Shown in pieces: positions 5,135 through 50,605 of a stretch of DNA of 64,000 bases; within the stretch, counting starts at the first letter, position 1, and every line of letters begins with the position of its first letter. The stretch spans positions 20,486-84,485 of the forward strand of contig NW_001865041.1 in NCBI RefSeq assembly GCF_000002865.3, written 5' to 3'. The DNA comes from Monosiga brevicollis MX1. Its lineage: Eukaryota; Opisthokonta; Choanoflagellata; Craspedida; Salpingoecidae. The notes under the pieces are model-generated. The model was given only the letters and a program-made list of their open reading frames with translations, did no database searches and was not told the DNA's origin. The position numbers and the translations under genes are program-made.

Positions 5135-8100
5135 CTACTGAATCAGCGCAATCAAGCGGCGCTTCTCTAACTCTGACTCCTGTAGCTCAGCCTGCAATTC
5201 GCGAATGGCTATTTCGTCTCGTGCCATCATGCCGTTGTGCACGTCCAGCAAGCGCTCTAATTCGAGTTCAAGCTGGCGAATTCGATCGCGGCGACCTGAC
5301 GATACCTCTTGGTCGGACATGCTGCTTGTTTCCACACAACTGTTGCTGAGGCGTTTGCGAAGCAGATCATTTGCAGAGCGCAATTCGCCCACCTCACGGC
5401 GGAGATTGGCGTTTTGTGAAGCAAACGCATCGTCAGCACTCCATCCATTATTTCTTTGCCAAGTCATATCGTGTTGCTTTGACATGGTCAATGGATTGGC
5501 AGAACGGTCAAGCTGTCGGTGAGCAGCGCTCTGTGTTTTGCCAATTGATGTGAAGCTATGCTCAAGCTGCACCTCATCGGGTTCACTCGAGGGGGAGTCC
5601 AAAGGAAGAATAGGTTTGCAGCGTAGTTGCTTCAAGTCAGCCCGCAGAGCCTGATTTTCGAGCAGCAAGTCTTGAACACTTTCCAGCTCTGTTTCGCGCA
5701 GGCGTTGATGGGCGCTCTCCAGCTCTGAAAGGCTTGCCTGCAGCCTTTCATTTTGCTGCCGTTGGCTGTCACAAGCATGTTCCAGTCTTAACACGGTTTC
5801 CTCGCGCTCGCGAAGAGCAGTTTTTAATCGCTGAACGTGCGCATGGTTGTCCTCTGAGGTCTGCTGCTCGTCATAATTAAAACCACTCTTAGCATGCTTC
5901 AGCTGCCGGTGAAGCTCCCCGATTTCTTGGGTGAGTTGCTTGTTACGAGTGTCCGACAGCAAAAGTTGTTGCTGTAGACTGTCTGATCGTATTTCAAGCT
6001 CACTGAGACGCTTCCGCTGATCCTGGAAGCTTGAAGACTTCTCACGATGGAGGTCATCGCGTTCACGGCACACGTGCTCTAACCGGCGCTGTAAGTCGTC
6101 GAGGTCTGCCTTCAAGTCCTGTATACTTCCGCGGGCGGCCTGCAGCTCGGCTTCTCGCGTGGTCATCGTCAGCTGTAGCTGACGCAGACGATGTGATTCA
6201 GTGACACTTGTCTTGAGGCGCGCCTCTTCACTGTAGACGTCCTGGAGCTCCTGCTCAAGATGAAGAACGCGATTGTTGGCCACGAGCCTTTGCTGCTTTT
6301 CCATCTCAACGGCATCCTTTGCATCCTGCAGCTTTGCTTGCAATGCTGTTATATCGCACTCGTGCTGTTGATTGACCTTCCGGACAATGGTAAGCTCAGT
6401 TTGAGCAGCCACCAGATCTTCCTGAATGCGCTGCACTGCTTCTGGCGTCATGCCTGCTTCCAAAACGGGCACGGTTCGCTCCTGTCGTGTGCTTTGATGT
6501 TGATTGAACACACGTTGCTGTTGCGCGAGCTCGTCTTGTAGGTCACGCACACGATTCCTTGCAGCTTGAAGCTGATCATGCTGTTCTTTAAGACGAGCAG
6601 TCAAGAGCGCATGCTCCTCTTTGACTCGAAGCTGATGTGAATCCGTTAGCCGACGATCCATCTCATCTTGCAGAGCCTGCGTTGCTGCTTCATGCGCTTG
6701 TGCATTAGCCCGCACCATGACAGCGTGTTCCTGCCGCAACAGAGCCATCTCTTCTGCATGACTGAGTGCAAGCTCGTCAATCCGTAGCTCCAGTGCACGA
6801 CGCTGCTCCTCTGAGCGCTCCAGCTCGGTGCGCCGCCGCTTAGCGTCCAATTTGAGACCCGCAATTGTGTCCAGTGCTTGACCCAGTTCAGCGGCATGTC
6901 GCTGGCTCTGATCTTGAAGTTGCTGGTCGCAAGCTTGCAATATTTCTTGCTTGTGGTCGGCATGACGATCCACTTGCGCTTGCAGCTGCTGAATACGGTG
7001 CTGTAAATTAGATGTTTGCTCTTCTGTGACCTGCTGCAAGGTCTCCAATGCTCGAGTCTTAGAAGCATCATGTGCAGCAGTGGCAGCCTCAAATTCAAGC
7101 CGCAACGCGGCAAGGTCGCGTTCCGTCTGTCGGGTAATGGCCTGCTGCTCGTGCAAACGTCGCTCAAGGTCAGCGTGTTGAGAGGACAAAATTGTCTTAT
7201 CTCGCGCCGCTTCTTCATGACCAGAGAGCTGTGCATGCAGGGTTTGCAATTCTTGTTGGCTAATTGTGAGTTGAGCTTGCATACCAGCAATGGTTGACTG
7301 TGCCCGAGACCGCTCCTCTGCTAGCTCATGGCGTAGTTCGTCTAGCTGCGTGCGATGTGCACTCGCCGCCTCTCCAAGGTCTTTGAGAGCTTCCGTCAGC
7401 TCTCCTTGCAGCGTATCACACTGTTGGCGCAGAGACGAGTGCAAGCGCAGTGCGTTCTGGCGCTCATGCTCCCAGCTACTCGTTTGCCATTCATCGTGTC
7501 TTCGATGAGCCTCAGCCTGCTGTTCAATGGTGATGCGAGCTTGACTCAGGTCTTGCAATGCAGTACTCAACTGCACGCGTAGCGCAGCCATGTCGTTCGT
7601 GTCTTGCTCCACTGCCAACTCAGCCAATACCTTGTCATGAGTTGCTTGTAACGCGTCCAAGCGTGCCTGAGTGGATGCAAGCTCAGAGCTCAGCCGGCGC
7701 TGCTCCAGCTCTGCAGCAAGGCTGCTCTCGTGTAGGGCCCGCTCCGAGGCAAGTAGGCGTTCTTGAAACTCCTGCAGAGCTTGATCACGTTCCTGGCGCT
7801 CTACATCGCGCGCTGCGCGCAGTTCGTTGAGCTCCTGAGTGGCTGCCTCTAGACCAGAGGCAAGCGCAGCACGTTCGACGTCGGCCTGCATTTGCTGCGT
7901 GTGTGCTTCTCTTAGCGCAATTTGCAGCTTTTGCTCGCTGTCTCGCGGTTGCTCTGCCTTCTCGCGCAGCTGAGTCATGTCCACCATCTGGCTGCGAAGG
8001 CTTGCAAGTTCGGTCTGGTGAATTTGCAACTGCTCACGAAGCTCGTCCACCTCGGCGTGAGCCTTCTTGAGTTCTTCCTGAGCGGTGGTGTGACTTTGTT

Positions 8101-11100
8101 GCTTACTGGTCTCGGCCGCCTCCAGATTTTGACGTAGTTGAGCAAGATGCTGTTGCTGGTTAGCTCCAAGCCGAGCAATTTCGGCACGATGGTCCTCTTC
8201 GAGTTGTGCAAGGTAGGTGCGATGTTCGCTTTGCGTTGTCACAAGTCGCGCCTCAGCTTCATCCAATTGTTGTTGCAGATTGTTGACTTTCGCCTCAAGC
8301 TCTTGTCGCGTTGCATCACCAGTCTGCTGCAAAGCCTCTTCTTTCTGGCGAAACTTGGCCACGAGCAATTCAAGCTCACTGATCCGACCCTGAAGAGTAG
8401 CCAGCTCGTCGTCTTTCTCAGTGCGTGCACGAATAGCCTCCTCATGCATGCGAACTGACTCGGCTCGCCATTCAGACCGCTCGTCCTCTAACGCTTGCTG
8501 GACCTGTTCCAATGAGCGTTTAGCCTTGGCGGACACCATGTCCTGATGCTCTTGAGCTGCTAGCAGCTCCGTCTGTAAAGCCTTTGTTGCGCGCTTTTCG
8601 GCCTCGAGTTGGGTCTGCAGATCAGCAAGTTGTGTGGCAAGAGCTTGGGCGGCGTTGCTGTGCTCGAGCTCTGTGGCTTTGGCACGCGCTGTGACCTGCT
8701 CCAAGCTTTCATCACCCTCCTGCTTAAGCCGCTCAAGTTGAGCCTCAAGCTGAGCGTTGCGCTCCATAACGGCTTGCAGGCTACTGTACAGCTCATCGTG
8801 TTTATGCAGAGCCTCACGAGCTTCAACTTGCGCACGATTGAGTTCTTGACGTAGGTTGTTGAGCTCCGTATCACGCTGCCGCAAGTTGCCGTTGAGTTGA
8901 ATCAGTTCCTCCGACGTGCGGCAACGCTCTTCCTGCGTTGACTGTTCAGATTCGATCATCATCTGCATGGTCGATTCATACTTGAACACACTGGCTTCCA
9001 GTTCTTCGATTCGCGAGCCGGAGGAGTGGCGGTGTGCTTCATGCTCCTTGCAGGCAGCGTGTAATTTGTCTTCTGATTCCTTGATTGCAGTGTGGCTGGC
9101 GGCCAGTGCGGCTTCAAGATCCGCAAGTTGACGTTTGTGCTCACTGCTCATTTCCAGTCGTAGCCGGTCCAGGGCTGCCTGGGCTTCCTTCTCTGCTGCC
9201 ATTCGATGCTCACTGACTGCATCAAGTTCCGAGCGCAAGCGCTCGAGCTCTGCCGCTTGAGCTCGTAGCTCTTGATTCTGCTTGATTTGCTCATCCAGCG
9301 CCACCTGAAGTGTGTCCACCTGTTGCGTCAGCTCGTCATGAGAGGCGTGAAGCTCTGCCAAATTTTGTGCAAGTTCTCGCTGCTGCTCATCCTGCAGCCC
9401 GGCGGAAGAGGTTGAGTTCATCAGATCCTCCTCACGCGCCTCGATTTGCTTGATCAGGGCAGCGTTCTCAATTTGGAGCTCGTCAATGCGAGCTGCCATG
9501 GCTTCTTCACCCATGAGAGCCAATTTGGCACGCCGAACCTACGTGTAAAGTATACAAGAACATCAGCAAGAGGTGAGCGCTAGAACGAGTTCCGGGCGCC
9601 ATCACATGTAAACGCAGGAAACGGGTGTGCAAGATTGTGTGCATATGCGTGTGCGTGCGTGCGTGCGTGCGTGCGTGCGTCAGCTAGAGCGACTAAACGA
9701 ACCTTGGCAGTGAGGCTGCTTTCCGCAAGGTGTTGGCGCCAGTGCTGCGCGTCCTCTTGTTCTTGCTGCAGTTCCTGACGAAGAGCATCTACCTCGCCAG
9801 CCCAGTGGGCTTCACGCTCATTGAAAAGGCGTTGTGTTTCTACTTGAAATAGTTCGAGGCGGCCCTCAAGCTCCTTGATTGTTGTCTGGGCAACGGTGAG
9901 TTGCTTTTCAAGGGTGGCGCGCAACTCTTGCTGAGCACTGCGGTAAGCTTCAAACCGCTCGCTCATGACCGCATTGTCATGCTGTAGCTTGCGAACAATG
10001 TCCTCCTGATCCATTTCCTCGAGCGCTGGCCAGGTCACCAGCGGAGTTGCGCGGTTTGCAAAGTGTGCTTGCTTAAGCCGCATGAGCTCAGCCCGTTGCT
10101 CATCACTGATCTCGCTGAGAAAGGAGTGGCCGTCTTGAAAATAGTCAGTCAAGAGCATTTCTTCGCCCAGGTCCTCAAACTGGAGCTGTGTCAAAGCCAA
10201 CTGAAGATAAAACTGGTTGTTTTCATGCTCATGCAAGGCATGGACATCGCGCAACTCTTGGCGATATTGGTTCAGTTGAGTGTCCACGTCAACGAGCGTG
10301 CCATCTTCGCTGACCAAGCTACCTCGAGCCATCTAAAAATGAACAAGCATCCGGTTAGGTCGGCAATCAAGAAGCAAGTGCAAGCGGTGCGAAACAAAGT
10401 CCAGCAAAACCACGGGGGACGAGGGGCAAAGAGCATACCAAAGCCTTCATGCGTCGCACTTCATCTTCATAGCGCTCAAGCTCGCGGCGAGTGGCGTCTA
10501 GCTCGCTTTCAAGATCGCAGATAGTGGCCTCTTTGCTGGCGCACATTTGTTTGGAGGCATCCAATTCTTCTGCGCAAGCCGCTCGATCCTGGTCTGCACG
10601 CTCCACTTCAAGGCGCAGGCTATCAATTTGTTGATTCGTTTGTTGGTCGTGGGTTCGGCGATAATCGGCAAACATTTGCTTGGCTTCACCGTAGTCCATT
10701 TTGAGGTCAAGATACTGTTGTACGAGCGTGCGAAATTGGGCTTGTAAAATGCTGCCTGCGCCCCGTTTCTTCTGAAAGAATACCTCCCGGAAGGCAACGC
10801 AAAATTCTTGAAAGTCGAGCTCTCCCGAATCACTGTCAACAGTAGCATCGGTACAAATGGTTAAGACTGAGCATACCATTGTCAACATCCGGGGGGACCA
10901 TGTGCACGAGTGCACATCTTCCAAGGGAACGAGTATCAAAATATCGTAGGGCAGGAGATGCGTGCATTAGGTGCGAGGTGCCTGTACTCACTCATCATCG
11001 ATTTCTCGAAGGATGCAGTTGACCATCTCCTGGTTCATGACGTGTGCCGTAGGCCCCATTAAAGTTTCGTCAGCCAATAAGGCTTGTAATTCAAGGCTAT

Positions 11101-21457: not shown

Positions 21458-24400
21458 TCACCGTCCGTCACCAGAATGCACGCTCGCTGTTTCGCCGTCG
21501 GCAGTGCCAGTCTAAGATGAAAGCAAGTTGATCATAAGCATGGGGCAGCCAAACAAAGATATTATAACCACAAGAGGTGAAGCGACGCCAAGCTACACAC
21601 GTGTTTGCTTTTGTTCTTGCGACCGAGAAACTTGAATAGGCCCTTGCGAGGCTTGGAGGAATCAGCACCATCTGCTGGTGCCTCAGGTGCGGCCGCAGGT
21701 GTTGCTGTGCTTTCTGCAGTCTCAGCTGGAGCGGGTTGCTCAGCAGGGTTGAACGAGGCCGAAGCAGCCGCAAAGGTTGTCATCAGCTGATCGGCAACGC
21801 TGGGAGCATCGCGGCGCAGCTGCAACTGCATCACTGGAGATGGCTCCTTCAAATAAGCAATGACGTCCTTGTGCGCTAAGTTTTTGAGTGAGTGGCCATT
21901 CACCTCGAGGATGCGATCGCCAACTAGAACACGGTGTGTTTTAGCTACCGCCTGTTGTACAGCGTAGATAAAGAAGTGAGCAGGAACACGGACAAGCACT
22001 GTAGACGCCCCGTGATTGAGTGGAATGAAGATGCGACTTCAGCGCAACTTACCCCACTTAGTTCCAAAAAGGTGATGCGCGGAAAGAACTCATCCTCATC
22101 ACCGCCTGTACAAGCACAGATCAATATGTACATTGAGTTGGGAGTGGAAGGGTGCGCGCAGCCACAAAGCATGTACAATGCACACATACCAGCCTCCTTC
22201 TTGGCGCTGATCTTCATGCCCAACGGATCCGACCCCTTGTGCACTTCAACATTGAAGATCTTGGGATACTGCTCTTCCTCAGACGCTGCCTCCTCAGGCT
22301 GAGCCACCGGCTCTTTTGCTTGCGACGCATGTGACACCTGAGACGATGCTACTGAGACAGCATCTGCATCTTGCTCTACACACGGGGAGATGAGTGGCAT
22401 TCATGAGCGTGAGGGCAAATGTGGGACGTCGATTTGGGACGGTCAATCACAGCGAGGCAGAGGCGCTGTGCATACCAGACTTGTCATCAGCACCATCCTT
22501 TTTGGATTTGGATTTCTTGCCTCGGCCAAAGAGCTTGCCCACGCGCTTGGAAAACTTGCTCTTTCGCTTTGTTTCTGGAGTAGTGTCATCGGCACCCAGG
22601 GCACCGCGCAAAGCATCGATGGCTGCTTCCGCCGTGGGCCCCGTGGTTTGGGTGACATCATCGGCATTTGAGGGCTCGTCTTCTTTCACTTGCTCAGCCT
22701 GCTCAGGTAGCTCCACGGTTGCTGCCGCACCATCGGCCTCCGGCGCAGCCTGTTCCAGTTCAGTCGCTGCCACCTTGGTTTCATCAACCGGGACCAGCCC
22801 GACCATGGAACGGACATATCGTTTGCCATGGCTATCCGTAACAATTTCGTGAAAGTCCATCAGGTCTGCAGCAGCCATCGTCGTTCCATCAGCAACAACA
22901 GCCATCTCGCCTTCGATGGGGACATGCTGATCGGACTCGTCTGAGGCATGCTCTGAGGCAGCGGCAGGGTCATTGGCCCAGGCATCGTCTTCCCCGTCTT
23001 CACTGGACGTGACTTCCTTCTTGGACTCCTCAAGCACGGTCTTGCCGATCTGCGCCAAGCGCTGCTTGACGTCCAAGCGAGAAGAGGCTGGCGCGGCCTC
23101 TTCCTCCTCAAGGTCATCGGGCAGATCTGTGTCAGAGAAGAGATCATCGTCGTCCTCGTCGCTATGCTCAGCCGCGGCGGACGCCTCCGCTGCGGCACTT
23201 GCCACGCCGAATAGGGCCGCGGCCTCTTCAGCCAAGCCCATCTCCTCGTCATCCTCGTCCTCGGCAGATTCATCGATTTGAGGGGCCTCCTCATCGCTCT
23301 CGCCCGCTGCGGGCTTGTCCTCTTGAGAGGCCTCCTCATCGCTCTCGCCCTCTGCGGGCTTGTCCTCAACCAATGCAACGACTTGGGCAACCTCATCGTC
23401 CTTTTCAATCGATGCGTCAACCCGAACAGCTCCATCGTCCTCTGAGATTAAAGCATCGACTTGGGCAATCGACTCGTCGTCCTCCGACACCGCAGGCTCT
23501 GTAGAGTCCTCGGTACGTGGCTCGTTGCTCGCGTCCTCTGCAAGCTTGGCATCAGTCGGTGCATCGACTTGCTCGACCAGTGACGGTGCCTCATCGTTGG
23601 CACCCTCACGCGCAGTTTCAATTAGAACGTCCGCTGGCTTCGAAGGTTCTTCCTCCTGCTTCGAAGGTTCTTCCTCCTGCTTCGAAGGCTCTTCCTCCTG
23701 CTTCAAAGGCTCTTCCTCCGCGGAGCGGTCCTCGCCATCGCTCAACCCGGACAAATCGGCATCAGCAAAGGCCATGTCGACCAGATCATCGTCATCATCA
23801 TCCATGGACACCATGTGGTTGCTGGACTCGGTTACCTCGTAATCCTGATGGCGCTCGTCGTCCTCGAGTTGAATCATGTTTTGATCAACAACGCCCTCCT
23901 CGGTTGAAGCCATCTCGTCCATTTGTATGTTTGCAGTCCAAGCCGGTGCCTCAGTAGCGAGCTCATCCTGAGCCAGGCTGCGTTCCGCCTCAGGCTCAGA
24001 ATCCGAGTCCGCCATGTCCACGACCTGAACTTCGAATTCCTCGGCCACTTGGGGGCTGGCACTGACATCGGCAGATGCAGTCTCGTCGACCAAAACCTCT
24101 TCCTCGGACTCTTCTGCCTGAGCAGTCTCAAGCTCTCCAGACTGATCCGAGTCGACATGGGAAGATTCTTCTGCAGCAGCAGGCTCAGACATCGCTTCCT
24201 CGCAAAGTGGAGACGCCTCGGCACCCTCCTGAAAATCCTCCACCGCGGGTTCGTCGGCCATGGCTTGCTCATGCTTTTCCCCGTCTGCTGGGCTTGGTGT
24301 TGAAGCCTCTGTCGGTTCTTCTGCATGGGCGTCCGGCTCAATCGATGCCTCTTCTTGCACCACCGATTTGGCTTCGATAAACTCGGGTTCCCCTTCAACT

Positions 24401-26668
24401 TCATCCTCGTCAGCGTCGGAGAACTCAGTATCCATGAGCTCGGCAGGCTCACTGGCACCCTGCAACCCTTCATCCTCCACCTGGTGACTTGCCAGCACCT
24501 CGGCTTCATATGCATCGCGATCGGCTTGCAGCTGATCGTCCACGGCAGCACTCGCTGCAACAGAACCCAGAACAAATTGAAATGGTGTGAGGCCAAATAA
24601 TGGTGCGAGAGAAGAAAAAATAATTATAATAATAATAATAACAATAACAATAAAATCAAATACCGTTGGCTCTGGGACAGGCAACAAGTAGCTTACCGGC
24701 GAGAACATCGTCAATGTGCATAGACAAGCGGTGTTGGGCTGAGGCGGCACGCTCGGCTGACGTATGCAGGGTGGCCATGTCACTTTGCATCTGCGCTGCT
24801 GCCTTGGCCTTGCGTGACTCCTGAACGTTTCGCAACTTGGAAGCACGTTTCTTGGGCTTCGAAGTCGCTTTGATGGTCTTAGCAGCCGGTGACCCACGTT
24901 GCGCTACACGCACGTTTGCCGGTCGAGCCTGGGTCGCAGGTGCCGACCTTGTTGCACGTGTCGGCGCTCGGTGCGGTGTGCGGATGAGAGCAGGTGATCG
25001 CGGCGCAGGTCGACGCACAGCTGAGGCGGAGGTCGGGCGAGAGCGGGGCATGTTTCCAGCACTATCAATGCTCGGCATGTACGCGGCATTGACGCGGGTG
25101 CTGATGTTCCAACCGGATCCAGTAATCGCTTCCGTCTTGCGAAACTGAAACTGTAGGACGAAAGATCACAAATGAGTCAAGTGAACCTGGCCAGAGCCTA
25201 ATGACTGACGAAGGCAGTCACCAACCTTGGCCACTTGGGCAGAAAGTGGCTCAGATGAGCGACGAACGGCGATGCTGGCCTTGACACGCTCCTGCTGCAG
25301 CTCGTCCGTTGGTGCAACCTGCAAACAAGCATAACAAGTCGGTGTTGTGAAAAGCAAATTTAAGTCAAGCTCCGGTTTTTGCTTGCTGTCCAGGAAAAGG
25401 TTTGGGCCGAGCATATGGCCGCCTCCGATGTAGACCCACCTTTGTGGAAATGTCCCAGTATTGCTCCGAATCAACCACACGAAAATTGTGAAGGTCGGGG
25501 TGCCGCCCCAGCGGTGTTGTGTCCATGACAGTCTCCACCTGCAAGTTCGTTTTTGATAAAATGTAAATCGACGTCGGCGGGAAAACAAGGGGGGGGGCGT
25601 ATAGAGGGCACAGAGCGGCGATAAAGCACTTTTGGTGTCAAACGTACCGGAGCAGAGCGTGTTGACGTGTCCCAAGCGTGGTCAGCAGCAGCATCCAAAT
25701 CGCGGAAACGATGTTGATCGGGATGATTTGGCAAAGGGGTGACGTCGGTCTTGACATCATCCTGCAGTTTTTTTAAAAAAACAAACAAACGTATAGAACC
25801 AGCCAAACCGTGTAAGAGTCAACGCTCGCGATTGAGTGTGCACACAGAACCAAGGTGAACTCACGTATTTCAGACGTGAGGATGCATCCCAGAACACCTC
25901 CGGGTGAGCTTCATCTCGGAAAGAATGAAGTGCCGTGTGCTTGTTGGGTGTGGTCTCGTAAGTATCACTCTGTCGGGCCCACCAAGGCAAGAGTTGTTCA
26001 AAAAGTAAGAAAGTTGGGACAGAGAGTGATGTCAAAGGGAACGGTAGGCGGGTAATGCAAGGTGAAACACCAACCTGAGATACTTTGGGCGATGCGTCCC
26101 AAAAAACGTCATCGCTAGGCTCGTCGCGGAATCTGTGATGATCGATGTGGCGATTTGGGGTGGTATCAAGCTGCGGGCGTTCCTGGAGTTTCAACAATGT
26201 GCAAAGAGTGAGCTTGTGGGTTTAACCACCTTCGGCAACATCAAGAAACATGAAACCCAAACGTGGCGTGCACGCATCAACTTGCCGCTTCGTAGTGGCC
26301 ATTAATGTCCCACGCGACGTCGACATTGGCTTGATCACGAAAGCTGTGATGCGAGATGTGTCGATTCGGAGTTGTATCTACATCTGGGCGAACCTGGATG
26401 CAACATCGGTAATTGAAAAGTGAGGCTTGTGCTGGCGGAGGCTTGTGCTGGCGTCTGTGATGAGTAGCTCATGGCCACGCTATACCTGATCAAGGCGACC
26501 ACTCGCATTCCAGGCTGTCTCGGGGTTCGCCTCGTCTCGGAAGGAATGATAAAGGATGTTCTTATTTGGCGTTGTGTCGATATCCGGACGAACCTGAAGA
26601 GTACAGCCCGCAAAACTTGAGATCAAAGGATCCTCCCCAAGGAGCAGTACAAACCCCAATTCATAAAG

Positions 26669-42020: not shown

Positions 42021-42503
42021 CGACCAAGAGGCGGAAAAAAAAACCAAGCTTCAAGCTACTGGTCTCTGCTGGCAGGATTCTGCTGATCCAGTGCAATGCC
42101 AAACTGAGTCGTTGGTGTTGTAAGAGTTTACAGTAAATTCAGTTTAACCTCCAACTGTTATCTCCAAATACGTCTTGGATTTGGCGCGCGGCGTCCCGAC
42201 AAGACAGTTTGAATGAGCACAGCTTGGAGAAGACGGTAAAGAAGAATGAGAAAATGGCACAACACAGGAAGGCAAGTAGGAACATGGCAAGCAAGTGAAC
42301 AAGAAAGCTTTGACCGCGGAATCAAAGCCGGGTAGAAGACTACAAAATGAGTCAAAACATCCTCTGGTGGATCCAGAGAGAGCTGGAACCCGAACTTGCT
42401 GGCTAGCAGGCATTGGTTTTATTAAAAAGAATACTCCGAGACCTGGCGTTTGGGCACCAGGATGGGAGAAGAAGGAAGGCGGTACTCTGAAGCCATTTTG
42501 ACC
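42021..42503. other. Convergent 3' spacer
   Basis: 483 bp between the PPP4R1 and PTB-adaptor stop codons. No gene, RNA or repeat recognised; it should contain both 3' UTRs. Confidence 0.6.
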
Positions 42504-43564
42504 CTACAATGCCACGCCTTGATTGCCGTCGGCCATGGCGTCCATCTGCTCAAAGTCCAATTCAGCATAAGAAGTGGTGGCTTTTCCCTTGCCGGCACCG
42601 TTCCTGGAGTGTGCATCAAGGCAGTATTAGCACATGACAAAGGCAGAGGAAGCAGGGATGACGAATGAGCATTGTGCTTACCCTTTGGCGATCTTGAAAG
42701 CTGCTTTCGAGGAGAGATCAAGCTGTGCGTAAGCCAATTTCTTGGGTTCGCCGCTGCCAGCAGTGCCCACGCCCTTGTATGGATTCTAAAGAGGCGTTGG
42801 AAGGCGGATACCAGATGAACAAGTGGGATGATGGCATGTCGGATTGAGTCTTGGGGCAAAGGGTGATGCTGGTTCGAACCTCGGCTGGTGCTGCGGCAGC
42901 TGTAGTATGAGTTTGATCTGGGATGGGTGTTTGTTTGACCTTGTTCACATAGAAATCAACCATGCTAAAGAGCTCTTTGGCTTTTGGGGTGCTAACGGCC
43001 CAGATGCCCGGTCCGTCTGTGCAGCGACGACCAGCTTCAAAAGAGAAATACTTTTTATCGTAGCCAAAGCGCCGCAGATAGCGCAGCTCCCAGACGGCCT
43101 TGTCCGAGTGGCCTAGACCAGAGCAACCGTTCCGCCGACGCAGCATGGTGAGCGGTGCTGAACACCACTTCGGGCAAGCCCTGGTGGAGCAGAGGAAGGC
43201 AGGCTGGGTCGCGTCACAGAAACAAACCAACCGTGCTGTTGCAGCATCATGGCGTCTGTCGTGACAGTCATGGTTCCTTTGGCTTGGGGCTTTACGCGCG
43301 GTGCAAATAGCAAATGAGGACCAGTACCAGATGGATGCGGCAAATTTTATCATGCTGGCCAGATGGCCGGCCAAAGTGTAAGCAATGGAAGAGTACCTCT
43401 TCTTTCTCATCCAGGATTGTGACGGGAAAGAGACGTTCGGGGGGCTATGTGAATACGGCAGGCACATGGATATGATCTGAGCACCAGCGTGCCATGATAA
43501 TCAACGCGAGTGCAAGCGCTTGGTAGGCACGTACAAACGATTGTTTGCTACCCGTGCACCCCAT
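42504..43564 (-). CDS. Myristoylated IRS-type PTB adaptor with two ITIM-like tyrosine motifs
   Basis: Six exons: 43564-43535, 43444-43397, 43289-43232, 43112-42880, 42785-42682 and 42603-42504, giving 190 aa exactly in frame. The N-terminus MGCTGSKQ fits an N-myristoylation signal (Gly2, Ser6) with Cys3 available for palmitoylation. Residues ~12-100 form an IRS-type PTB domain: LFPVTILDEKEE, GTMTVTTDAMML, VWELRYLRRFGYDKKYFSFE, AGRRCTDGPGIW. This is very close to the FRS2 and DOK family, including the arginines that bind phosphotyrosine ligands. The tail has ENPYKG, LAYAQLDL and TSYAELDF. The last two fit or nearly fit the ITIM/ITSM pattern and are 28 residues apart. I infer a membrane-anchored docking protein that becomes tyrosine-phosphorylated and recruits SH2 proteins. 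It is much shorter than FRS2 or DOK. Confidence 0.9.
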
Positions 43565-44471: not shown

Positions 44472-45569
44472 ATGGCCTTTCAGAATGTCAAGCTGTGCTT
44501 GCTGGGGGATGCTGGTACGTGTCCGATACTCGGGAGCTTGCTGGCGGCTTGAGCGTCGGCCCTGGCTCGGCCTCTTTCCTTGTCTCATCGCGTCATTCAT
44601 TTGCAGGGTGCGGCAAGTCATCCCTGGCCCAGCTTTACGTTTATGGAAGCTGCCCGCCTCGTCTCGAGCCCACGATTGGGTGCGTTGCATGGCCCCCAAT
44701 AGTCGACCAAACCAAACCCCACACCACTCGGGCAAGGCATTGCGAGCCCAGGACTCGAACACAGCTCACCACCTCCTGCTCTGCCCGCGCTGGTGCAGCG
44801 CATCCTTTCTCACCAAAATGATAACGTTGGACAACCGCGAGCTGAAACTTTCCATTTGGGACACAGCTGGACAGGAAAAGGTGACCACCACCTCCCCCCA
44901 CCCCCCGCGCGTTGGGCAGAGGACGAGGACAGCAGTCATATCTTGGTGTGGCTCACCGCCCTTTCCAAATATTCATCCCCCATTCATCTGCCCTTAGTAT
45001 CGTGGCCTGGCCCCCATGTATTATCGTGATGCGGAGGCGGCCGTCATCGTCTACGATATTACCAAGGCCTCAACCTTTCAAAATGTGCGCTCCTGGGTCA
45101 GCGAGCTGACTGCCATCAACCCGGGACAGCGCCTAGCTCTAGCCATTGCCGGCAACAAAGCAGGTACGCTTTGGCCAGCTTTGGCTTCGGTGCCGCGTAT
45201 CTTTCGCGGCTGCTCATGCCTTGATTGTATGGCCGGCCTGCCAGACCTGGACGAGCAGCGCCAGGTCGCCTACCAAGATGCCAGCAAATATGCCGAGTCG
45301 GTTGGCGCCATCTTCTTCGAGACGAGTGCGATTCAAGGCATCAACGTTCACGAACTCTTCGACCAGCTGGGTGCGTCATGGTGCAAGACCTAGGGACAAC
45401 CTGGCCGCGCTCACAGTGTTGAACCCAGTGGACATCTCACCGCATGTTTGGGCCAACTCGTGCAGCCAAACGGATCACGCCTTCGCGCAAAAGCGAGACC
45501 CAGACCAACTCGATCCAGCTCGGCTCGGACATGCCAAGTTCAGCCTCGGCAAAGCGCGGGTGCTGCTAA
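44472..45569 (+). CDS. Rab GTPase of the Rab5/Rab22/Rab31 clade
   Basis: Six exons: 44472-44514, 44607-44679, 44799-44880, 44998-45163, 45245-45370 and 45466-45569, giving 197 aa in frame. G motifs are intact: P-loop GDAGCGKSS, effector PTIGASFLTK, switch II WDTAGQEKYRGLAPMYYR, GNKADL, and ETSA. The order GASF-L/M-TK, LAPMYYR and AIAGNKADL places it with Rab22/31 and Rab5, which act on early endosomes and trans-Golgi traffic. The hypervariable tail ends in KRGCC, a double-cysteine geranylgeranylation site. This was found only by choosing the acceptor at 45465, which supports that exon. The residue after GQE is Lys, where most Rabs have Arg or Lys. Which single orthologue it represents cannot be decided by eye. 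Confidence 0.93.
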
Positions 45570-47496: not shown

Positions 47497-50400
47497 ATGT
47501 CGAGCCGTCGTTTGGAACGAGGCGCTTGCCTGTGGATCGGCTTGCTGGGCGCAGTAGTGGGGCTGGCTCTCGGTGCCAATGGGATCCATCCAACCGCCAC
47601 AGCTATCACAAACCGGAGTATCCAAATCAACTTTGCAGAAGAGGTGCTGCTTCCTTTTCCCCACTTTTGGCAAAGGTCAGGCTGGCGTGCTCTCTTGTCG
47701 ATTTGCAGCCACCGCGCGCGTAGATTGCGACTCTCAACCTCACCAAATTGCGCACCATTCCTTGCTCAGCTGCGGATGGTGCCCGCCAGATCCACATGAA
47801 GAGTTTGCCCAGTATTTCCTCACCGAAGATCAGCGGCAGAATCACATTCTGATTGGTGTGTCTTCTTCCTTCAACCCGTTCAAGCCCCGCTCTCCGCTAG
47901 GCTGGCTGCATTACCTAGAGCTGATACTGGGGTCGCCCTTCCACTCAACCCACGCACCTGACCTGCAGGCTCGGTGCCACATGACGGTATCAAGTATGTT
48001 CGCATTCATTTCCTCTTGGATCTCATCCACGTGGCCAATGCCTACGAAGTCGACTGTGATAGCGCAACATGGACCTGCTTTAACGAGTCGGCGGTAGGCC
48101 CTTGATGTTGACACCAACCCAAGACATGCTTCGATTGGTGACTGGATCGGGCGCACCGGAGCAAACCTGCTCATGCCATCATTGCTCAGGGATTTTTGGC
48201 TGGTGTTGCGCTCAATTGGACGGATCTGGATGCCGGTCTTGATATTCTCAAAAGCAACGGCCTCTACCCTGGCTTTGAAATCATGGGTTTGTCCATCTCC
48301 CACGCACCAGAGAGTGGCATCACCCGCACAAGCCATGCCACCTAGCAGCGTGACCTCATTTTGAAGCCATTTTCTGCGCTATCTTTTTCCCCAGGCAATC
48401 CTGGTGGCACCTTGTTCTCAGATTTCCGTGATGCTACTCAGCTTGATGCCTTTGGCCAGGTCGTCACTGCCTTGGCCAAGCGGTACATTGGGCGCTACGG
48501 TCTTCAAGAGGGTAGGTGCACCCCCCTGAGGAAGCAAGGTGCTTCACCTATTTGATTGCGTATTTTGATTCACGCTGTGGCCGCAACAATGCCCATCATG
48601 CTGCGATAGTGAGACAGTGGCGCTTTGAGTCATGGAATGGTCAGTCGCCCCTCGCCGCCGGCTAGCATGACCAGTCGGGCATTTTCTTGTCGGTATAGAT
48701 GCCCCACCTCATCTGCAATGACTTTTTCTCTCTTTTCTGAAATGTTCATCGCCGCTGCCCGCAGAACCAGAAGGAGAGTGCAAAGAAGAGCTCCAAGCCA
48801 ACATCCAATGCAACCTAGCTGCTTTTATCAACTATTGGGATGTAATTGAGCACGCCTTGCATCAAGTTGATGGCCAGGTCTGTCGATCCAGGTCTTCTAA
48901 AAAGGTGGCCCTTTGCCGGAAAGGTCATTGGGATACCGCCATCATCATCATCATCATCATAGTCGGCCTCGTAGTTGCAACCGGCTATGTCATCTCATGG
49001 AGGTGAATTCTTGATAGCTGATCTTTGGGGGTCCAGCTTCGGATGGCGACAAGAGCTTCTTTGTTGCCATCGTTGAGCACTGCCTCACAGGCACTCACTA
49101 TGTCACCGGCGCAGCTGGCTGTGGGAACATTACTTACTTCAACTTTCATCAAAAAGGTCTCCTTGTGCTTCATCGCCTCATCACCGAAGCCCCATCGCTT
49201 GGTCGGTTCTCCGCGTGTCTTCACATTTTGACACGTCATCTGCACATAGGCAACAGCAACAGCTTGGGCATCATCGAGCAGGAGAAGCCTTTAGCCACTT
49301 GGCTCTATCAGCAGACACGGCATACCGCGTACGCTGATACGGCCTTTGGCAACGATGAAGCTGATCCGCTTGTAACCTGGAGTCGGTATGTGAAGCCTCA
49401 AAGCCTCAGGCACACTCGCATACCCACCTTATGATCGGGCAATGCAACAAAGTTGTATGCTTTAGGCAGCACTTTGGCAATGCCCGCTCTGACTGACATG
49501 TGTTGTTGCTTTAGCATTGAGCCTTGGCGGGCAGATGCTCGCTACCCCGCAATGATTGTCAAGACCATAAAGCAACACATGGTCGATCTCATCTACAATT
49601 CTTCGCTGCCCGGTCTGTACCTGGAGTCCCGTGGCATGACCCACTTTAATTTCACCCGCCCAACGTAAAGAATAACCTGAACCGAGCTGAGCCAACTCTT
49701 TTCACCGGGGCATGCCAACAGGATTTCGCTACGACCTTCTATCCAATGACAATGGTTTTCTAAATTATCCAGACAACGGACCGCATGCCTTTACGCAACG
49801 CACGCTCGTTTCACGCTTTGATTACAATGCCACCCAGTCCATTGCCAGCTTTCGCAAGCTCAGTCTCAACGTGATGGCGCTCCTGTCCCTACTCGGTGAT
49901 CGGGTTACCTTGGCCACCACCGGCACGGCGTCTCCGGACACGGATATCATTGGCACTATCGCCACCGTGCGTGGGGACGCTGCCTCACGAGAAGTGGCCG
50001 TGCTTCTGTATGCCTCCAATGACGCAGCCAATGATACCATCGACTTCACGGTTCTGCTCAATGCAAGCCATTGGCCCAGCTTCTCAGACGGCGCTGTTGC
50101 TGTGGCTTTTGCGCTGGATGATGCACATGGCAGTGCATTCGCAGCGTGGCAAGCACAGGGCGCGCCGACATTTCCCTCTGTAGCTGAGCGCGAGGCCATG
50201 CGTCAGGCAGCAGAAATTCCTCTTGTGGCAGGATTTCCCCAACCCGTGAGTGAGCCAGAATGGCGGTTCAATATACCAGCCCCGGGGCTTGTGCTGTTGC
50301 ACGTGTGTGAGCAGCGGGCAGCCCCAGCTGCTCTAGCGGCCCCGCGACTTCACGTTACAACCACGCGATCACCACCCGAGGTATACATTCTTTGGAATGA

Positions 50401-50605
50401 CGCCCCAGATCGCTGTCTTCTGACGTACGAGGTGATGTACAGCGCAACGTCCAGAAGTGACGCGATTCGCGTCAACCCTGTGGCGACTCGCTTCACAGCA
50501 TACCTGCATGTGCAGAACGGAACATTGGCACAGGGGTGTTACAGCGTCACAGTCACTGACTATTGGGGGCAATCATCACCGCCCAGCCCCGTCACGTGCT
50601 TGTGA
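47497..50605 (+). CDS. IDUA: Alpha-L-iduronidase, lysosomal GH39 glycosidase
   Basis: Eleven exons: 47497-47572, 47709-47855, 47969-48093, 48190-48286, 48395-48511, 48610-48639, 48765-48877, 49018-49156, 49250-49385, 49515-49612 and 49722-50605. They sum to 1,962 nt, 653 aa. An N-terminal signal peptide (LWIGLLGAVVGLAL) is followed by matches along the whole of human IDUA: CGWCPPDPHEEFAQYFLTED, HDGIKYVRIHFLLDLI, GLYPGFEIMG, RYIGRYGL, WRFESWNEP, IFGGP, NDEADPLVTW, PWRADARYPAMIVK and LLSNDNGFLNY. The catalytic acid/base Glu (WNEP) and nucleophile Glu (NDEADP) are both present. The enzyme removes terminal iduronic acid from dermatan and heparan sulfate in lysosomes. The acid/base Glu codon is split by an intron (48639/48765). 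The C-terminus matches the human fibronectin-like region. Confidence 0.96.

Follow-up and report, generated by a model that had tools for sequence, protein, structure and literature searches.

A gene of Monosiga brevicollis probably encodes a compact, FRS2-like docking protein for the phosphatase SHP2. It lies in the window, as we call the whole 64,000-nucleotide stretch of DNA that was analyzed, where it runs on the minus strand from 43564 to 42504 as six short exons with a product of about 190 amino acids. We established the structure of this gene, the homology of its PTB domain, and the fit, order, and spacing of two tyrosine motifs in its tail, as well as the presence in the genome of genes for an SHP2-type phosphatase and for an N-myristoyltransferase (NMT). 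For brevity, we refer to the putative adaptor and its gene as the docking protein and the docking gene.

A preliminary description of the locus had proposed a spliced protein of 190 amino acids, and our reading of the minus strand reproduced the same product (Table 1), with introns of 90, 107, 119, 94, and 78 bases. For exons 1 to 4, we tried 468 combinations of GT and AG sites. Of these, 45 gave a frame open as far as the PTB helix; a first half of the PTB domain that could be aligned to FRS2 was retained in 5 of the 45. The five have exons 1 and 2 and the start of exon 3 in common and vary at the exon 3/4 junction, with exon 3 ending at one of three in-frame donors. We prefer the junction 43232/43112 (donor GTTGGT, acceptor after TCTAG), which represents a choice. 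The 3' end of exon 4 is also ambiguous, as four in-frame donors at 42879, 42939, 42948, and 42960 place it at 42880, 42940, 42949, or 42961 and yield products of 190, 170, 167, and 163 amino acids, respectively. All four models retain the PTB core and both tail tyrosines, and every alternative at the exon 3/4 junction and at the end of exon 4 preserves the GYDKKYFSFEAGRRC core together with both tail motifs. Each of the exon 4 donors deviates from the strong consensus; the donors of the docking gene are about as loose as those of two other genes of this genome, the SHP2-type and the Rab-type one. Exon 1 is defined by two elements only, its ATG and its donor. There is an in-frame stop upstream, the ATG is the only one between that stop and the donor, and the donor sequence, GTACGT, is apparently also used by the neighboring Rab-type gene.

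Table 1. Features of the docking gene, with positions in the window
Feature	Position	Strand	Description
Exon 1	43535..43564	-	ATG at 43564; encodes MGCTGSKQSF
Exon 2	43397..43444	-	First PTB strand (PPERLFPVTILDEKEE); aligns to FRS2/FRS3; coding score of +5.1 in the model frame
Exon 3	43232..43289	-	PTB strands (PQAKGTMTVTTDAMMLQQHG, junction codon shared); aligned to FRS2/FRS3
Exon 4	42880..43112	-	PTB core LRRFGYDKKYFSFEAGRRC and C-terminal helix
Exon 5	42682..42785	-	Tail with LAYAQLDL (Y142); fits SHP2 N-SH2 consensus
Exon 6	42504..42603	-	Encodes TSYAELDF (Y170) in the tail; match to SHP2 C-SH2 consensus; TAG stop codon, 42506-42504
AATAAA polyadenylation-type signal	42418..42423	-	About 80 bases 3' of the docking-gene stop

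We scored codon usage with a model trained on the longest open reading frame (ORF) from each of 20 fetched loci, and the score supported exons 2 to 6 in the predicted frame. Exon 1 was uninformative (-2.8 bits over 10 codons). Exon 3 scored +2.1 and was negative in the other sense frames, while exon 4 reached +5.3 over its PTB part and +0.1 over 42948-42880. Exon 5 scored +3.1 bits versus -18.7 and -10.6 in the other sense frames, a value matched by 5.7% of wrong-frame open stretches; for exon 6 the score was +9.5 bits versus -15.9 and -17.3, matched by 0.1% of such stretches. The same scores bear on the possibility that the main product is tail-less, with intron 4 retained and a stop near 42720, which would leave a PTB protein that lacks both tail tyrosines. 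The frame through intron 4 is indeed open (ORF 42718-43500), and the departure of all exon 4 donors from the strong consensus would fit intron retention. However, the run-on frame scores as noncoding (-2.2 through intron 4 and then -8.8), against the positive in-frame scores of exons 5 and 6, and the AATAAA signal comes after exon 6. We consider a tail-less main product very unlikely.

The MGCTGS start noted in the preliminary description was recovered in exon 1. In MGCTGSK, the residues Gly2, Cys3, Ser6, and Lys7 fit a predicted start for N-myristoylation plus palmitoylation, judged against a myristoylation-type pattern of the PROSITE form. Among the 1832 ATGs of the window that are followed by eight open codons, 26 carry the looser myristoylation-type pattern and a single one, the docking-gene start itself, carries MGCxx[ST]K. 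When an MGC start and a following Ser were written as a DNA pattern, the window gave one match where 0.17 were expected, and 17 of 100 shuffles reached one match, so the MGC start alone is weak evidence. It is suggestive of lipid anchoring, not decisive.

The docking protein contains one IRS-type PTB domain (Pfam IRS/PTB, E of 1e-14 on the spliced protein), with a genome-level Pfam IRS match over profile positions 39-89 in exon 4 (E of 5.9e-12). A phmmer search against solved structures returned FRS3 (7.5e-14) and FRS2 (9.8e-14) as the best relatives, in agreement with the FRS2/DOK assignment made from the letters at the outset. DOK2 (7.1e-10) and DOK1 (8.3e-10) followed four orders of magnitude behind, and IRS1 was marginal (0.07). 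In the reverse search, with FRS2 against the genome, the docking gene came first at 4.8e-11 and the next match stood at 0.01. The PTB domain is identical to FRS2 at 32 of 87 aligned residues, to FRS3 at 31 of 84, and to DOK2 at 26 of 80. Because FRS2 and DOK2 themselves share 27 of 79, these values point to a member of the FRS2/DOK superfamily that leans toward FRS2, with orthology unproven. The PTB core, LRRFG-DK--FSFEAGRRC, is as DOK-like as it is FRS2-like, and in a nine-row PTB tree, which carries a long-branch warning, no branch was supported and MbPTB formed a long branch among FRS2, FRS3, DOK5, and DOK1/2. R59 and R74 of the docking protein are 15 residues apart, as in FRS2, DOK1, and IRS1; the phosphotyrosine (pTyr)-binding arginines of IRS1 and DOK1 have this spacing.

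Six IRS-type exon matches with E values of at most 0.001 were obtained in the genome from 12 candidates scored. Besides the docking gene itself, these are three proteins that we read from their sequences as MyTH4/FERM-type, one that we read as a talin, and a divergent docking-type gene, L006. Pfam gave no PH domain in the spliced docking protein, and none was found in the 11 minus-strand ORFs of at least 25 amino acids between the docking gene and its Rab-type neighbor, a search that a PH domain split over very short exons would escape. A PUA match on the spliced protein (E of 0.048) fell below the cutoff and was taken as chance. Searches of viral contigs and prokaryote genomes confirmed no relatives among 13 and 149 pattern stretches, respectively.

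After residue 103, the tail has three tyrosines only: Y126, Y142, and Y170. Two of these form the motifs LAYAQL (Y142) and TSYAEL (Y170), whose separation by 28 residues in exons that score as coding agrees with the preliminary description. Passages of PMC10231330 give the consensus of the SHP2 N-SH2 domain as (I/L/V/M)xpY(T/V/A)x(I/V/L/F) and that of the C-SH2 domain as (T/V/I/Y)xpY(A/S/T)x(I/V/L), and report the best activation for a head-to-tail order, N-site and then C-site. By the forms given there, Y142 is of N-SH2 type and Y170 of C-SH2 type; this is the activating, head-to-tail arrangement that defines a bisphosphoryl activation motif (BTAM) of SHP2. The pair test was not blind, because the locus had been selected for ITIM-like motifs (the SH2-specific consensus and the order played no part in the choice); in it, such an ordered pair arose in 3 of 200,000 shuffles of the 87-residue tail and in 4 of 200,000 shuffles of the 68 residues of exons 5 and 6. 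ITIM/ITSM-like sites are common, with 50 among the 768 tyrosines of 20 long ORFs from the same genome. N-SH2-type and C-SH2-type sites accounted for 8 of the 768 tyrosines each, and no ordered pair 20 to 40 residues apart occurred in the 28,081 amino acids of these ORFs. At the DNA level, genome-wide recurrence was discarded as a line of evidence, as the YAxLD[LF] pattern was not enriched (47 matches versus 42 in a reversed control); a same-strand pair as close as this one among 47 matches has a probability of about 0.4% by our own arithmetic.

We also compared the tail with other tyrosine motifs. None of Y126, Y142, and Y170 lies in a Grb2-type YxN. The docking protein has a single YxN, at Y100 (FYVN); it lies where the PTB helix ends, and two of the four exon 4 donors give products that lack it. 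YxxL motifs of an ITAM lie 6 to 8 residues apart, and an ITAM reading was ruled out, the two YxxL motifs here being far beyond that distance. PMC8631942 writes the ITIM as S/I/V/LxYxxI/V/L and the ITSM as TxYxxV/I; it reports that many ITIMs conserve an Ala at pY+1 and that the ITIM precedes the ITSM in almost every human tandem receptor. Ala occupies +1 at Y142 and Y170 alike, and LAYAQL conforms to the ITIM as written there. TSYAEL misses the strict ITSM, with Leu at +3. Of the tandem ITIM-like motifs first described, the SHP-type pairing and the ITIM stand, a strict ITSM is absent, and the term "ITIM-like" can be sharpened to an N-SH2 site followed, head to tail, by a C-SH2 site.

An SHP-type partner had been anticipated as well, and the genome contains one. 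This gene (L007, C39:699643-702454, minus strand) encodes tandem SH2 domains followed by a phosphatase, with an E value of 1.2e-74 to human SHP2 versus 1.1e-58 to SHP1. It is identical to human SHP2 at 66 of 99 aligned residues in the N-SH2 domain and 53 of 93 in the C-SH2 domain, and it retains the pTyr arginines and the autoinhibition-type D61/E76 positions, with Ala where human SHP2 has Thr42. We label it SHP2-type on the basis of its best match and domain order. Homologues of Shp2 and Grb2 in Monosiga had been reported before, in PMC7260276. Across the genome we obtained at least 114 SH2 and at least 83 phosphatase exon matches, numbers that agree with reports of an extensive phosphotyrosine machinery in M. 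brevicollis. The assignment to this species is further supported by primers printed for the M. brevicollis HMTK1 kinase in PMC3082566: 20 gene-specific bases of the reverse primer have one exact match in the genome, and 18 bases of the forward primer are located about 1.5 kb from it in the expected, opposite orientation, which is plausible for a cDNA of 421 codons interrupted by introns.

FRS2 is described in a passage of PMC3634400 as a myristoylated, PTB-containing protein that brings in Shp2 through tail tyrosines, and our proposed mechanism is modeled on it. Myristoylation, probably with palmitoylation at Cys3, would tether the docking protein to the membrane, and the IRS-type PTB domain, which keeps R59 and R74, would bind a receptor or membrane tyrosine kinase. 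The bound kinase would phosphorylate Y142 and Y170, and the doubly phosphorylated tail would bind the SHP2-type tandem SH2 domains head to tail, Y142 to N-SH2 and Y170 to C-SH2. The phosphatase would thereby be opened and activated beside the receptor. We infer these lipidation, phosphorylation, and binding steps by analogy. ITIM-bound SHP phosphatases dampen signaling. FRS2-bound SHP2, according to passages of PMC3634400 and PMC8226934, strengthens ERK signaling in animals, and because of these opposite precedents the output could have either sign; the FRS2 precedent favors an output that promotes rather than damps signaling. The "inhibitory-type" adaptor of the preliminary description would work otherwise: SHP2 borne by the tail would dephosphorylate the receptor or its substrates and end the signal, an account that overlaps with a docking protein for SHP2. 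The ITIM fit of LAYAQL (PMC8631942, as cited above) and the resemblance of both sites to the ITIM/ITSM pairs of PD-1 and BTLA speak for such an adaptor. Yet TSYAEL falls short of the strict ITSM, the sign of an output does not follow from motif type, and the nearest relatives by PTB domain and layout are FRS2 and FRS3, which in the passages cited recruit SHP2 to strengthen ERK signaling. We therefore did not retain the inhibitory label, and we regard this outcome as rather unlikely.

The docking architecture could also hold with a tail that recruits other SH2 proteins (Src-, CSK-, PLC-gamma-, or SH2-only-type) rather than SHP2. Sites with a hydrophobic +3 residue are bound by several SH2 classes, and the SH2 exon matches in the genome include a PLC-gamma-type tandem SH2 protein. 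What argues for SHP2 instead is that its N- and C-SH2 consensus forms, as given in the source above, are both matched, in the right order and at a spacing of 28 residues that few shuffles reproduced, and that the tandem SH2 part of the SHP2-type phosphatase shows strong conservation; recruitment of other SH2 proteins seems to us a minor, though appreciable, prospect. Alternatively, unphosphorylated YAQL and YAEL might act as YxxPhi sorting signals, binding AP-2 mu and leading either the membrane-anchored docking protein or the receptor it partners into clathrin pits. Both motifs do fit the YxxPhi consensus for such signals. However, YxxPhi demands two positions only, whereas -2, +1, and +3 match the SHP2 consensus in both motifs, which moreover come after a PTB domain of the pTyr-reading type. 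Sorting is, in our judgment, an improbable role for this tail, and a docking protein for SHP2 remains our preferred reading.

A 2020 survey (PMC7260276) states that true FRS2 likely arose in Urbilateria and that choanoflagellate matches are unconvincing. Its criteria for FRS2 sensu stricto include an N-terminal myristoylation sequence, an IRS/FRS2-type PTB domain, and no N-terminal PH domain, and further several tail tyrosines at which Grb2 and Shp2 dock and grouping with FRS2 in a tree. In the docking protein we found a myristoylation sequence (by pattern), an IRS/FRS2-type PTB domain, and no PH domain; its tail has the Shp2-type pair, with YxN only at Y100. Like FRS2/FRS3 (SNT) of Bilateria, it has a predicted myristoylated start directly before the PTB domain and SHP2-type tail tyrosines. 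It differs from them in its three tail tyrosines, with no Grb2-type site in the tail, and in its length, about 190 amino acids being far shorter than the roughly 500 of FRS2. DOK1/DOK2 resemble it in the PTB core and, for DOK2, in the identity given above, but their PTB score is lower (E of about 1e-9), and the PH domain that precedes the PTB domain in DOK/IRS adaptors was not found. With PD-1, BTLA, and other ITIM/ITSM receptors it has in common an ITIM-like and then a switch-like site with Ala at +1, the site type that seats SHP tandem SH2 domains in the source cited for these motifs. Unlike these receptors, which have an ectodomain and a membrane span, it is predicted to be lipid anchored and to carry a PTB domain, and it lacks a strict ITSM as defined there.

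By the sequence criteria of PMC7260276, the docking gene appears to be a better choanoflagellate FRS2 candidate, and it reopens the question of where true FRS2 originated. A module of lipid anchor, IRS-type PTB domain, and head-to-tail SHP2 pair may predate the choanoflagellate-animal split, with the bilaterian tail gaining its Grb2 sites later. We hold this only tentatively, as possible but doubtful. If true, the origin of FRS2 would shift from Urbilateria to before animals, and paired SHP2 motifs would be older than immune receptors. The similarity may also reflect convergence, from a DOK-type PTB protein that lost its PH domain and gained a lipid signal. Together with the SHP2-type phosphatase, the docking gene offers a small, testable two-protein system for asking whether paired-pTyr activation of SHP2 existed before animals.

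The docking gene is presumably present in public databases as an automatic gene model. The M. brevicollis genome was reportedly surveyed in 2008 by Manning and by Pincus. A literature search whose reach did not extend to these two surveys found no paper describing the docking gene. PMC3507883 credits Manning 2008 with a count of 31 PTB domains for M. brevicollis, a set that may include the one described here.

Several other loci with pTyr-related domains were noted in the genome. A second FRS2/DOK-type docking gene (L006/L009, C56:333854-333958, plus strand) has a divergent PTB exon (Pfam E of 7e-7), whose fragment best matches DOK2, weakly (E of 0.001). The SHP2 consensus is not matched by any of the 8 tyrosines (YSEI, YAEV, YADV, YSMI, and others) in the examined part of an ORF that lies about 800 bases downstream and is presumably spliced to this exon. 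At C20:135851-138804, an SH2 domain, phosphatase exons, and another SH2 domain follow one another on one strand, possibly forming a phosphatase with SH2 domains at both sides; we know of no such layout in animals. At C15:99716-102091, a phosphatase exon is followed about 2 kb downstream on the same strand by an SH2 exon; together they may encode a phosphatase that carries an SH2 domain at its C terminus. A PLC-gamma-type gene (L008, C54:1871000-1876000) has a phospholipase core, tandem SH2 domains, an SH3 domain, and a C2-like stretch, all read by eye from ORFs alone.

Within the window, two long minus-strand ORFs (5138-9538, 1467 amino acids; 22450-24903, 818 amino acids) have strong coding scores and gave no Pfam match at E of 0.001. 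A Rab-type GTPase gene begins at 44473 on the plus strand (Pfam Ras, E of 3e-17 on 66 joined residues). It is divergent from the docking gene, and the two genes share an upstream region of about 0.9 kb that contains GA repeats. Farther along the plus strand, 49691-50602 encodes a partial alpha-L-iduronidase-like glycosyl hydrolase (GH39, Pfam E of 6e-13) together with its C-terminal domain.
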